A stretch of 64,000 nucleotides of DNA. It comes from Brevibacillus laterosporus DSM 25. GTDB lineage: Bacteria; Bacillota; Bacilli; Brevibacillales; Brevibacillaceae. Under the pieces are notes generated by a model that saw only the letters and a list, made by a program, of their open reading frames with translations, was not told where the DNA came from and did no database searches. Below, piece after piece: positions 53,184-56,328 of the stretch (within the stretch, counting starts at the first letter, position 1; each line of letters begins with the position of its first letter). The stretch covers positions 4,873,501 through 4,937,500 of the forward strand of contig NZ_CP017705.1 of the NCBI RefSeq assembly GCF_002706795.1, given 5' to 3'. The position numbers and the translations under genes were made by a program.

Positions 53184-53212
53184 TTGACAATTACGAATTG
53201 TTCCAGTATGAT
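53184..53212 (+). promoter_or_regulatory. Promoter of the mgtA leader transcript
   Basis: Consensus TTGACA (53184-53189), 17-base spacer, TATGAT (53207-53212), about 15 bases before the M-box. Confidence 0.85.
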
Positions 53213-53224
53213 TCACATAACAAT

Positions 53225-53397
53225 TAAGTCCTCGTTAGGTGAGGCTCCTATACAAACATAGGCCACTGCCCAGAAATATCGAAAGATGCCCATGGGTAGA
53301 ACAGGAACTGTCGGATTAAGGCTTTTCTTAAGGTGGCTAAGAGATCGTGTAAGTCTCTTTACGTTGTATAGTGCCAAAACTCGACTAGGGGGAACGA
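53225..53397 (+). ncRNA. M-box (Mg2+) riboswitch
   Basis: Clear M-box elements: CTCGTTAGGTGAGGCTCCTA, then CATAGGCCACTGCCCAGAAA, then CGAAAGATGCCCATGGGT, then GTGCCAAAACTC near the 3' end. It precedes a P-type Mg2+ ATPase, the classic target. High Mg2+ folds the RNA and favours the terminator at 53425. Confidence 0.97.
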
Positions 53398-53424
53398 AAA
53401 TGCTTATTTTGGTATGCATACTTC

Positions 53425-53455
53425 AAACCCTCTAGTTATCCTAGAGGGTTTTTCA
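53425..53455 (+). terminator. M-box terminator
   Basis: Arms AACCCTCTAG and CTAGAGGGTT followed by TTTTC. Confidence 0.95.
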
Positions 53456-53478
53456 TTTTGTAAAGGGGGGATTTCCAC

Positions 53479-53631
53479 ATGGAAGGCAGTCCTAGTAGTC
53501 AATATAAACAGCTGTATCAACATTCTGTAACAAGAGAGAAGCATATTTTCTATGCTCTTACATGTTTGCTATGCTCTTTTTTTCGCCCTCCTTTACCAAC
53601 ATCGTGGGTGTATTTAAGTATGCGTATGTGA
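53479..53631 (+). CDS. Possible leader peptide of mgtA (50 residues)
   Basis: ATG 53479 follows an AAAGGGGGG site. The product begins MEGSPSSQYKQLYQHSVTRE, contains a Cys-rich hydrophobic stretch (ALTCLLCSFF) and then RPPLPTSW. It ends 30 bases before a second terminator. Proline-rich leaders (MgtL) control mgtA in enterobacteria; a match in design, not in sequence. No known homologue. Confidence 0.5.
   Translation: MEGSPSSQYKQLYQHSVTREKHIFYALTCLLCSFFRPPLPTSWVYLSMRM
53533..53583 (+). promoter_or_regulatory. Alternative hairpins within the mgtA leader frame
   Basis: AGAGAAGCATA (53535-53545) can pair with TATGCTCTT at 53551 or with a second copy at 53570 that runs into a seven-base T-run (53577-53583). 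Two competing partners for the same arm are the mark of a switch. Confidence 0.45.
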
Positions 53632-53661
53632 CATGCGAGTGCATAGAAAAATAGTCAGCTC

Positions 53662-53689
53662 ACTCTCTCTTACAGGGAGAGTTTTTTTG
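53662..53689 (+). terminator. Second terminator upstream of mgtA
   Basis: Arms ACTCTCTC and GGGAGAGT (one G-T pair), loop TTACA, then a seven-base T-run, ending 36 bases before the mgtA ATG. Confidence 0.85.
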
Positions 53690-53724
53690 TGTCTATTTTT
53701 CACACTCGGGAGGTACTTACTAAC

Positions 53725-56328
53725 ATGAAACAAGCTAAACATCTCAATAATAAATCGTTGAACCACGACATTTCTTCTCGTCTAATTAAGGCATCGACTT
53801 CGAATATTGATAATCTTCTGCAATCGTTGAACACAACTGTGACGGGACTATCAGAATCCGAAGTCAATAAGAGATTAAATCAATACGGCCAAAACCAAAT
53901 TGCCCAAGAGAAACAGCCAGCATGGTATGTACAACTTCTTTCATGCTTCAAGAATCCGTTTATTCTGATTTTGCTTGGGTTAGATATATTCTCCTATTTT
54001 TCAGATGATATAGAAGCATCCGTCATCATTAGCACAATGGTTTCCATCAGTGTACTTATTACCTTTACTCAGGAGTTCCGTTCCAAACGAACCGCAGAAA
54101 AATTGAAAGCGATGGTCAAAACAACTGTAACCGTAACCCGTCTATCTATAAAGCAAGAAATCGACATGGAGAAGCTGGTACCTGGTGACATTATTCATCT
54201 GTCCGCCGGAGATCTTGTTCCAGCGGACGTTCGAATTCTCAATTCCAAAAATTTGTTTATTAGCGAATCGGCTCTCACTGGGGAAGCATTTCCCGTAGAA
54301 AAACAAGCTACTGCTGATCAATCTCTTCACGCCTTAGAGCTTTCCAATCTTTGTTATATGGGAACAAACGTGATAAGTGGAACTGCCACTGCCCTAGTGA
54401 TTTCAACCGGTTCTTCTACCTACTTCGGTTCCATGGCAAAAACATTGATAGATAAGCGTCCGTTGACAAGCTTTGATAAAGGCGTGAACAGTATCACCTT
54501 TGTCCTTATTCGCTTTATGTTGATTATGGTCCCCATCATTTTTTTCATAAACGGTTTTACAAAAGGTGATTGGATGGAAGCTTTTTTCTTTGGATTATCC
54601 GTCGCTGTTGGCTTAACACCAGAAATGCTTCCCGTTATTGTAACGGCTAATCTGGCCAAAGGTGCAATCAGCATGGCACGAAAACAGGTAGTTGTGAAAA
54701 AACTGAATGCTATCCAAAATTTTGGAGCTATGAATATTCTATGCACCGATAAGACTGGAACACTTACAGAAGATAAAATCGTTGTAGAAAAACATGTAGA
54801 TATTCTCGGAAATCCCAATGTGAACGTGTTGAGATATGCTTATTTGAACAGTTACCATCAAACAGGATTAAAAAACTTGTTAGATGTTGCGATCGTCGAG
54901 CATGCCCAACGAATGAACCTTCTGGAAGACGAGAAAAATGTTCAAAAAATAGATGAAATCCCCTTCGATTTTAATCGCCGCCGTATGTCAGTCGTACTAA
55001 AAAACAACGAAGAACATCTTCTCATTTGTAAGGGAGCTGTGGAAGAAATTCTGAGTAATTGTACTCTAGTATCTAGTAATGGACAGATCATGCCCCTCAC
55101 ATCGGAAATTGTGGAAAACATAAATAAAGTGGTACATGATTTAAATACGGATGGTCTGCGCGTCATCGCCGTTGCCATCAAGCCTTCTGATCCACGCGAA
55201 CATGTATACAGTGTCAAAGACGAAAGTGAAATGATCCTTGTAGGGTATATTGGATTCTTAGATCCACCAAAGGAAAGTGCCGCGAGTGCAATACAAAAAC
55301 TGCATGCAAACGGCGTCGATGTGAAAGTGCTTACAGGTGATAATGCAGTGGTTGCTCGTAAGGTTTGTACAGATTTAGGTTTACAGGTAGATCAGGTTAT
55401 CATTGGAGGAGAAATTGATGATGTAACGGATGAGATGTTAGCTGATCTAGCAGAAAAGACAACAGTCTTTGCCAAACTAAATCCGTTACAAAAGGCAAGA
55501 ATCGTACGCGTACTTCAAGACAAAGGACACACCGTGGGGTTTATGGGGGATGGAATCAATGATGCTGCATCTTTGCGTGAGGCAGATGTGGGAATTTCGG
55601 TTGATTCAGCAGTCGATATCGCAAAAGAATCAGCAGACATCATTTTGTTAGAGAAAAGCTTACTGGTATTAGAAGATGGAATTATGGAAGGACGTAGAAC
55701 GTTCGGAAACATCATTAAATATATCAAAATGACCGCCAGTTCTAATTTCGGTAACGTGTTTAGTGTTTTGGGTTCAAGCTTATTTCTACCTTTCCTTCCC
55801 ATGTTACCCATTCATTTATTAATTCAAAATTTGTTTTACGATATTTCACAGCTATCCATTCCTTGGGACAATATGGATAAAAAGTTTTTACAGACTCCAA
55901 GAAAATGGGATGCGAAATCGGTGGGGCGATTCATGATTTTCATTGGTCCAATTAGCTCGATCTTCGATTATGCCACCTATTTCGTCATGTATTATGTATT
56001 TGCAGCCAACACTATTGCTGATCAATCCTTATTCCAATCTGGCTGGTTTATCGAAGGATTATTGTCTCAGACTCTCATAGTGCATATGATTCGTACGGAA
56101 AAAATACCATTTATTCAAAGTAGAGCTAGTTTTCCGGTTTTACTTTTAACCAGTATTATTATAATAGCAGGAATCTATATTCCCTTCTCTGCATTTGGAG
56201 CAAGTGTTGGATTACAGCCGTTACCACTGGAATATTTCCCATGGCTAGTAGGGATACTACTTAGTTATGCACTTCTCACCCATTTCATAAAAAAATGGTA
56301 CATTCGTACCTTTGATGAATGGCTGTAA
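53725..56328 (+). CDS. mgtA: Magnesium-transporting P-type ATPase, MgtA type
   Basis: 867 residues from ATG 53725 (GGGAGG site); the GTG at 53689 lies in the terminator T-run. P-type IIIB features: TGEAFPVEK, the phosphorylated Asp in CTDKTGTLTE, the hinge GDGINDAASLREADVGIS and about ten helices. It moves Mg2+ into the cell. Expression should rise when Mg2+ falls, through the M-box and the second control point. Confidence 0.95.
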   Translation: MKQAKHLNNKSLNHDISSRLIKASTSNIDNLLQSLNTTVTGLSESEVNKRLNQYGQNQIAQEKQPAWYVQLLSCFKNPFILILLGLDIFSYFSDDIEASVIISTMVSISVLITFTQEFRSKRTAEKLKAMVKTTVTVTRLSIKQEIDMEKLVPGDIIHLSAGDLVPADVRILNSKNLFISESALTGEAFPVEKQATADQSLHALELSNLCYMGTNVISGTATALVISTGSSTYFGSMAKTLIDKRPLTSFDKGVNSITFVLIRFMLIMVPIIFFINGFTKGDWMEAFFFGLSVAVGLTPEMLPVIVTANLAKGAISMARKQVVVKKLNAIQNFGAMNILCTDKTGTLTEDKIVVEKHVDILGNPNVNVLRYAYLNSYHQTGLKNLLDVAIVEHAQRMNLLEDEKNVQKIDEIPFDFNRRRMSVVLKNNEEHLLICKGAVEEILSNCTLVSSNGQIMPLTSEIVENINKVVHDLNTDGLRVIAVAIKPSDPREHVYSVKDESEMILVGYIGFLDPPKESAASAIQKLHANGVDVKVLTGDNAVVARKVCTDLGLQVDQVIIGGEIDDVTDEMLADLAEKTTVFAKLNPLQKARIVRVLQDKGHTVGFMGDGINDAASLREADVGISVDSAVDIAKESADIILLEKSLLVLEDGIMEGRRTFGNIIKYIKMTASSNFGNVFSVLGSSLFLPFLPMLPIHLLIQNLFYDISQLSIPWDNMDKKFLQTPRKWDAKSVGRFMIFIGPISSIFDYATYFVMYYVFAANTIADQSLFQSGWFIEGLLSQTLIVHMIRTEKIPFIQSRASFPVLLLTSIIIIAGIYIPFSAFGASVGLQPLPLEYFPWLVGILLSYALLTHFIKKWYIRTFDEWL

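Follow-up and report, generated by a model that had tools for sequence, protein, structure and literature searches.

The stretch analysed here, hereafter the window, comprises 64,000 nucleotides (nt) of Brevibacillus laterosporus DSM 25 (contig NZ_CP017705.1, positions 4,873,501 to 4,937,500) and encodes the Mg-translocating P-type ATPase MgtA, whose sequence matches TIGR01524 with 1298.2 bits against a cut-off of 610.75. The leader of mgtA has two parts. An M-box riboswitch with its own terminator (stage 1) is followed by a short open reading frame (ORF) and a second terminator (stage 2). This layout had been described in a first-pass annotation, and its M-box, first terminator, 50-codon frame with own ribosome site, second terminator and mgtA were all confirmed at the positions given there. 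We consider it probable that the two parts are transcription switches in series, in which the M-box is followed by a leader peptide attenuator that senses Mg2+ through early loss of the ribosome. The following features make up the leader, with the parts of the stage-2 hairpin listed further below.

53184..53212, forward strand: sigma-70-type promoter-like site, TTGACA-17-TATGAT, 11 of 12 consensus matches
53224..53399, forward strand: M-box (Mg2+) riboswitch aptamer, RF00380, 155.7 bits against a cut-off of 44, E 1.1e-35
53385..53392, forward strand: CTAGGGGG, probable stage-1 antiterminator arm, complementary to CCCTCTAG in terminator 1 as read from the sequence
53425..53454, forward strand: terminator 1, M-box expression platform, stem 53425-53451 with 11 pairs, then a T-rich tail
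53465..53470, forward strand: Shine-Dalgarno (SD)-like GGGGGG of the leader ORF, 8 nt before its ATG
53479..53631, forward strand: leader peptide ORF, MEGSPSSQYKQLYQHSVTREKHIFYALTCLLCSFFRPPLPTSWVYLSMRM, 50 codons
53482..53496, forward strand: codons 2-6 (E G S P S), conserved, proposed sensor, identified by amino acid similarity and third-position entropy
53662..53688, forward strand: terminator 2, with 5' arm C at 53662-53670, 3' arm D at 53674-53682 and a T tract to 53688
53725..56328, forward strand: mgtA, with its SD, GGGAGGT, at 53708-53714

Stage 1 is a normal member of the M-box family, as its covariance-model match exceeds the curated cut-off, and it is the sole M-box match in the genome. 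Both elements of an M-box expression platform, a terminator and an alternative pairing, are present in the form of terminator 1 and the complementary CTAGGGGG; by analogy with the known platform, the latter is probably the antiterminator arm. Hairpins resembling terminator 1 were seen by eye at the same position in those relatives whose leaders were printed. A family-model scan gave no second known RNA family above its curated cut-off 3' of the M-box, the best sub-threshold families being EF3314_EF3315, which covers terminator 1 with 27.7/100 bits (E 0.00015), and Phe_leader (20.7/55). The scan of the leader gave 6 terminator-like sites against 1.7 ± 1.4 in shuffles, and its 5 promoter-like sites, taken together, do not exceed the 6.6 expected. 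As expected of a Mg2+ leader peptide, an SD-preceded short ORF sits between the promoter-like site and the gene of a Mg2+ transporter.

Relatives were drawn from overlapping samples of mgtA orthologues (5 genomes of the same genus, 39 at the level of the order, 398 each at those of class and phylum, and 344 from one further family, plus named contigs). The further family is taken to be Paenibacillaceae, since its genome G788 shares the leader of P. terrigena L007. The wider group of the window, made up of its own family, the Paenibacillaceae and one other family, contributed 34 leaders in which an M-box motif was present and the upstream region could be read. Structure tests use 32 of these and entropy counts use 31 distinct leaders; L179 and L181, whose leaders are longer, are outside the structure tests. 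The group test also leaves out L005 and L163, which have the same leaders as L087 and L007, respectively, and L185, a 55% paralogue in G1024 without an M-box motif. The structure tests likewise do not cover L140, which is from another family and whose match begins at residue 196, or any M-box mgtA leader from other families. Within the genus, the complete leader is present in 3 of 5 genomes, the window's own counted, and genomes G001 and G002 have neither a close mgtA orthologue nor the stage-2 module. A sequence model of stage 2 matches this leader and no other place in the window's genome.

In all 34 mgtA leaders of the wider group, an ORF starting with methionine and aspartate or glutamate (M-[D/E]) was found behind the M-box, 32 of them from the group read and two from the longer leaders L179 and L181 (both MDGSPSPKTQ). 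Across the 31 distinct leaders, nucleotide entropy reaches its minimum over the SD, the start codon and the codons that follow directly, with the SD zone from -16 to -10 forming a low-entropy block. The start codon is ATG in 26, TTG in 3 and GTG in 2; residue 2 is D in 22 and E in 9, and residue 5 is P in 20. Exchange of ATG, TTG and GTG at a conserved start, together with the M-[D/E] beginning in 34 of 34, argues for translation of the ORF.

The coding-bias check proposed in the first-pass annotation for the 53479-53631 frame was positive for codons 2-6. Their amino acid similarity was equalled by 11 of 5000 column permutations, and their third positions are more variable (entropy p = 0.0026), pointing to coding-type selection at the protein level. 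A check of frame conservation over the whole ORF was negative, as several leaders (L087, L170, L172) have a frame-shifted 3' part or an early stop; the middle and end of the ORF are constrained as RNA. In the leader of B. laterosporus MSSRFCCT15 (L087/L005), a T run is one T shorter, which puts the last part of the ORF into a different frame and leaves the RNA hairpin intact. What is conserved in the peptide is its acidic N-terminus, M-[D/E]-[G/S/D]-[S/G]-[P/S]-S, and not the RPPLP stretch to which attention had been drawn. That stretch is present in the window's ORF, but PP occurs in just 6 of 32 ORFs, and RPPLP is for this reason not a conserved signal. Proline sensing via RPPLP was rejected as a candidate on the same count, there being no conserved run of a sensed amino acid either. 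As a separate observation, the leader SD region GTAAAGGGGGG (53460-53470) is complementary to CCCTCCTTTAC (53586-53596) inside its own ORF in the predicted fold; this complementarity is present in the three same-genus leaders L085-L087, and is not obvious in the other leaders printed alongside.

The body of the ORF forms part of a long hairpin, the remaining elements of which are given here.

53532..53539, forward strand: arm A, AAGAGAGA, at the antiterminator base, where it pairs with arm C (species-swap duplex test, compensatory changes)
53546..53566, forward strand: arm B, pairs with arm F (species-swap duplex test, RNAalifold)
53606..53624, forward strand: element E, GGGTGTATTTAAGTATGCG, conserved and close to the tip of the hairpin, with the ORF stop in or just 3' of it
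53630..53650, forward strand: arm F of the antiterminator hairpin (species-swap duplex test, RNAalifold)

Pairing of A with C and of B with F gives a single hairpin of about 140 nt with element E near its tip, and pairing of C with D gives terminator 2 (stem 53662-53682, 9 pairs, loop of 3, then six T). The ORF after codons 2-6 is one strand of a hairpin that includes the 5' arm of terminator 2. The 36 nt formerly noted between the second terminator and the gene were recovered as the distance from the T tract to the mgtA ATG. Terminator 2 is present in 32 of 32 relatives, placed by the algorithm in 30 and by hand in L138, where the algorithm found none, and L166, where it chose the wrong place. 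Loss of the frame or of the second terminator in relatives with the same M-box had been named as the outcome that would speak against the proposal; the relatives keep both. In 27 of the 32 leaders the ORF stop is found at E+9 or E+23, element E being poorly scored in 6; the stop is usually located in strand F or next to it.

The earlier suggestion of competing hairpins inside the frame is borne out by the folding of 53453-53725 (z = -3.16; 1 of 200 shuffles as good) and by recurrence of the hairpin in relatives. It is corrected in one respect, in that a single long antiterminator hairpin appears to control terminator 2. In place of covariation on sequence-only alignments, flexible duplex and species-swap tests were applied. 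Across the 32 species, the A:C duplex has a mean of -15.0 kcal/mol with the partner from the same species and -12.3 kcal/mol with swapped partners, and the B:F duplex -26.1 and -18.0 kcal/mol, respectively (0 of 20000 permutations in each case). The result holds in 13 leaders thinned to <65% identity (A:C p = 4e-5; B:F 0 of 50000); both helices coevolve. Furthermore, RNAalifold recovered the hairpin from 6 leaders of the window's family, with 40 pairs of which 6 have changes on both sides, and also from 4 Paenibacillaceae leaders. When arm D is left out, the best fold has arm C paired to the ORF in 27 of 32 leaders, with a mean z of -3.5. Alternative RNA structures that leader translation could control, A:C with B:F against C:D, are thus predicted to be present.

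Beyond the mgtA set, the Paenibacillaceae census covered 118 genomes, 17 of them with M-boxes, and 30 M-box loci were read. A script found an M-[D/E] ORF behind the M-box in 22 of the 30, and a stage-2 model match added one more (L196). Besides mgtA, the stage-2 module precedes mgtE (L206), mgtC (L188) and a response regulator gene (L211, MDSLPSIV). An M-box with an M-[D/E] ORF also stands before a class I fructose-bisphosphate aldolase-like gene (L212, G797, MDDDSHK) and an ATP-binding cassette permease-like gene (L189). Families were assigned by profile for part of these loci, and the other gene names are readings of translations. The stage-2 model match is weak in L189 and absent in L191, L212 and L214. 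Among 35 chosen genomes the model matched 24 at E <= 0.01, some of them weakly, and it gave no match in the 7 taken as M-box-negative. Judged by its gene neighbours, the module belongs to the Mg2+ regulon of mgtA, mgtE and mgtC.

Several single loci deviate from the usual order. In L243 (G851), which has an mgtC-like gene, a promoter-like site is followed at once by stage 2 and no M-box motif is present; a remnant resembling an M-box start may represent a natural M-box deletion. The order is reversed in L235/L209 (G797), where an M-box remnant is followed by stage 2, a complete M-box and an mgtE-like gene. M-boxes were also seen before RodA-type genes in L242 (G488) and L202 (G797), the latter by reading of the translation. 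The former carries a stage-2 module (MDDSSSCRT), and its protein scores just above the TIGR02210 RodA cut-off. This position suggests that a gene of cell-wall elongation is under the control of Mg2+. In L193 and L205, both Paenibacillaceae, M-boxes precede response regulator genes, again by reading of translations.

At the level of the phylum, 104 of 299 genomes have an M-box match. An SD-preceded ORF with D or E at residue 2 was found in 16 of 29 M-box loci read, against 0.88 expected from dinucleotide shuffles; the same script found no such ORF in the remaining 13. These are unfiltered numbers, used in place of a motif-filtered count (10 of 22, 0.45 expected) that dropped 7 loci. With the same script, 16 of 28 M-box loci and 1 of 27 S-adenosylmethionine (SAM) riboswitch loci had an acidic-start ORF, one short M-box locus and three short SAM loci (27 of 30 used) being left out. 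Examples of the phylum peptides are MDPDPGSS (mgtE, L267), MDGDPSPYG, MDADPEPQ, MESDDDYLKK, MDSGPSPE and MDGSKGKDNSD (corA, L264).

Acidic leaders are not confined to M-box loci. In mgtA leaders of all kinds, a strong-SD ORF with D or E in residues 2-6 was present in 46 of 87, against 6.0 expected; most leaders of the window's group are uncounted here because the SD list excluded GGGGG sites. The mgtA loci with an acidic leader and without an M-box include G010 (MEDGSSHM), and IDDHPEP occurs in further mgtA leaders, which we take to be streptococcal. In L105, L107-L109 and L111, presumably clostridia, the SD and start region of the leader has a complement of about 12-17 nt some 80 nt downstream, in or beside a terminator-like region. 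We read this as a candidate second wiring of the same peptide type. In a scan of 33 named mgtA loci, all 7 from Pectobacterium had MDEHPRWPGKPHPLE or a close variant, presumably MgtL orthologues, and there was no acidic leader in most of the other proteobacterial loci. The window holds one other riboswitch match, a cobalamin aptamer (RF00174, 14620-14815, reverse strand, 105.9 bits).

The conserved ORF, the selection on codons 2-6 and a coevolving hairpin that includes an arm of terminator 2 make stage 2 look like a leader peptide transcription attenuator. This architecture is well supported by comparison, and we hold it to be very probably correct. The comparison of leaders supplies the parts, their conservation, the coding signal of codons 2-6, the coevolution of A:C and B:F and the association with M-boxes. 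It is likely, though less so, that Mg2+ is sensed at stage 2 by an early loss of the ribosome, as in MgtL. A Mg2+ sensor in series with a ribosome-dependent one, with mgtL-like logic in a Gram-positive, was the interpretation put forward in the first-pass annotation, and it remains the best-supported reading.

From these parts we infer a mechanism that includes translation of the ORF, the direction of control, Mg2+ as the signal and ribosome destabilisation as the cause. At high Mg2+, terminator 1 would form as in an ordinary M-box. Where transcription passes stage 1, a ribosome would initiate on the 50-codon ORF. Once past the first residues it would open the 5' strand of the antiterminator (A and B), and at the stop codon beside element E it would cover strand F. 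Arm C would thereby be free to pair with D, and terminator 2 would end transcription before mgtA. A ribosome lost or held at codons 2-6 of the acidic start M-E-G-S-P-S, before it reaches arm A, would leave the hairpin undisturbed; A would then capture C before D exists, terminator 2 would not form and mgtA would be transcribed. The early loss would most likely be caused by low Mg2+, as reported for E. coli MgtL (PMC11282234). With ribosome loss at low Mg2+, the control would have the sign that a Mg2+ importer needs.

Several results weigh against this mechanism. Arm C is not paired with the ORF, by the criterion set, in 5 of the 32 best folds computed without arm D, and with arm D present terminator 2 is in the best fold of 26 of 32, the window's own not being among these. 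Because terminator 2 prevails in those 26, antitermination would have to be kinetic in most species, not in the window's; attenuators generally act while the RNA is being made. RNAalifold yields no pair on a 22-sequence alignment built from sequence only, which we surmise is because arm F shifts register, and a fixed-register count for A:C was reached by 51 of 5000 shuffles, a weak result. The peptides of the group have a single acidic residue among residues 2-10 in 28 of 32 cases, a weaker motif than the EPDP of MgtL. Genomes G715 and G850, among the 35 searched with the model, have an M-box and no stage-2 match, and the script found no M-[D/E] ORF in the M-box mgtA leaders L117, L141 and L144 outside the group; an M-[D/E] ORF with a weaker SD is visible by eye in the last two.

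The same attenuator could instead answer to another translation-linked signal, such as an amino acid or charged transfer RNA, adenosine triphosphate, the state of an elongation factor or translation stress, so that mgtA would need both low Mg2+ and that signal. Two serial Mg2+ sensors look redundant, codons 3-7 often specify Ser (mostly as AGY) and Pro, and in Salmonella the tandem attenuators of the mgtCBR leader respond to different signals, according to the available parts of PMC3641672. However, the one residue shared by the whole group is acidic (D in 22 and E in 9 of 31), not Ser or Pro, proline runs are not conserved (6 of 32), and the module accompanies M-boxes and Mg2+ transporter genes. 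We therefore regard such a signal as rather unlikely.

Much less probable is that stage 2 acts as a structured RNA sensor without translation and that the ORF is incidental. Conservation of the long hairpin and of element E as RNA, and the shifting frame of the ORF end between species, would fit this view, whereas the SD and start are kept with exchange of ATG, GTG and TTG, third positions are variable, and acidic starts recur in other families, one of them with a different downstream RNA. It is more improbable still that the ORF encodes a small protein acting in trans on MgtA, with terminator 2 serving just to block leakage. Small proteins linked to Mg2+ are known from enterobacteria, but here conservation is limited to the first codons, the C-terminus is variable, frame-shifted or cut, arms A and B come from the ORF body, and the same peptide type stands before mgtE, mgtC, corA and a RodA gene. 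The preferred reading of stage 2 therefore remains a leader peptide attenuator responding to Mg2+.

M-box riboswitches are regarded as single-step Mg2+ switches. A wider proposal, which to us seems evenly poised, is that many Bacillota M-boxes are the first half of a two-sensor device. Acidic leader peptides would make up its second half, as a widespread class that is related to MgtL or convergent with it and that senses Mg2+ via the stability of the translating ribosome. They would use at least two wirings, the ORF-holding antiterminator hairpin of the window's group and the pairing of start region to terminator region in L105, L107-L109 and L111; they could lack the M-box, as in L243, and the mycobacterial M-box upstream ORFs (uORFs) would be of the same kind. 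If this is true, the picture of Mg2+ control in Gram-positives is incomplete, with a ribosome-based sensor often behind the M-box. Destabilisation by the nascent chain would then be a general Mg2+ sensor rather than an enterobacterial speciality, and the mycobacterial uORFs would gain a possible function.

The nearest counterpart in logic is MgtL, with an ORF of about 17 codons; the window's ORF lies behind an M-box, has 50 codons and has one acidic residue near its start. Shared features are a short ORF before mgtA and acidic residue(s) right after Met. In the group, residue 2 is D/E in 31 of 31 and residue 5 is P in 20 of 31, but mostly with a single acidic residue; DPDP and DADPEP forms occur behind M-boxes elsewhere in the phylum. 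The terminator is intrinsic here (Rho sites were not searched for) and Rho-dependent in MgtL, and most of the ORF lies inside the antiterminator hairpin. Common descent is not claimed, as the peptide is too short for homology. In the available parts of PMC11282234, low Mg2+ is reported to favour ribosome dissociation on the EPDP motif of E. coli MgtL, so that mgtA is transcribed, and expression of an mgtA fusion was undetected when Glu2 and Asp4 were changed. Translation of the MgtL leader is linked there to termination and drop-off to expression, as is proposed here. The leaders MDPDPGSS, MDADPEPQ and IDDHPEP from the Bacillota samples resemble this EPDP (PMC11282234).

The nearest published case is that of the mycobacterial M-box uORFs, which share an M-box followed by an ORF with a conserved N-terminus. 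For Rv1805A, the uORF behind the M-box is expressed, and its N-terminus and Pro7 are conserved; in the text available of PMC12810186 the authors leave the role of the peptide open, report a translational platform with Rho and call the uORF specific for mycobacteria. M. abscessus mgtE has an M-box and a ribosome-protected uORF (PMC4974804, available parts). A leader peptide attenuator of the present kind is not proposed in the portions of PMC12810186 and PMC4974804 that were available. In Salmonella mgtQ, Asp2 and Glu5 are reported to destabilise the ribosome and switch alternative stem-loops (PMC8092293); this system, between mgtC and mgtB, is Gram-negative, acts on mgtB translation and comes with no mention of an M-box in the available parts of that paper, and the mgtCBR leader cited above carries its tandem attenuators as mgtM and mgtP (PMC3641672).

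Among the matches listed in the PMC literature, which covers few subscription papers and preprints, there is no description of a leader peptide attenuator behind an M-box in Bacillota. A Thioalkalivibrio mgtE motif is the sole relevant mention in the available portions of PMC11109978, and those of PMC12992588, PMC13009471 and PMC11611912 hold nothing relevant. With amino acid attenuators of the trp and ilvB type, stage 2 shares a leader ORF, an antiterminator and an intrinsic terminator; it differs in that the window's group has no conserved run of one amino acid and conserves an acidic start instead. Compared with the usual M-box (ykoK) with its intrinsic terminator, the leader described here has an additional, apparently translation-dependent terminator before the gene.

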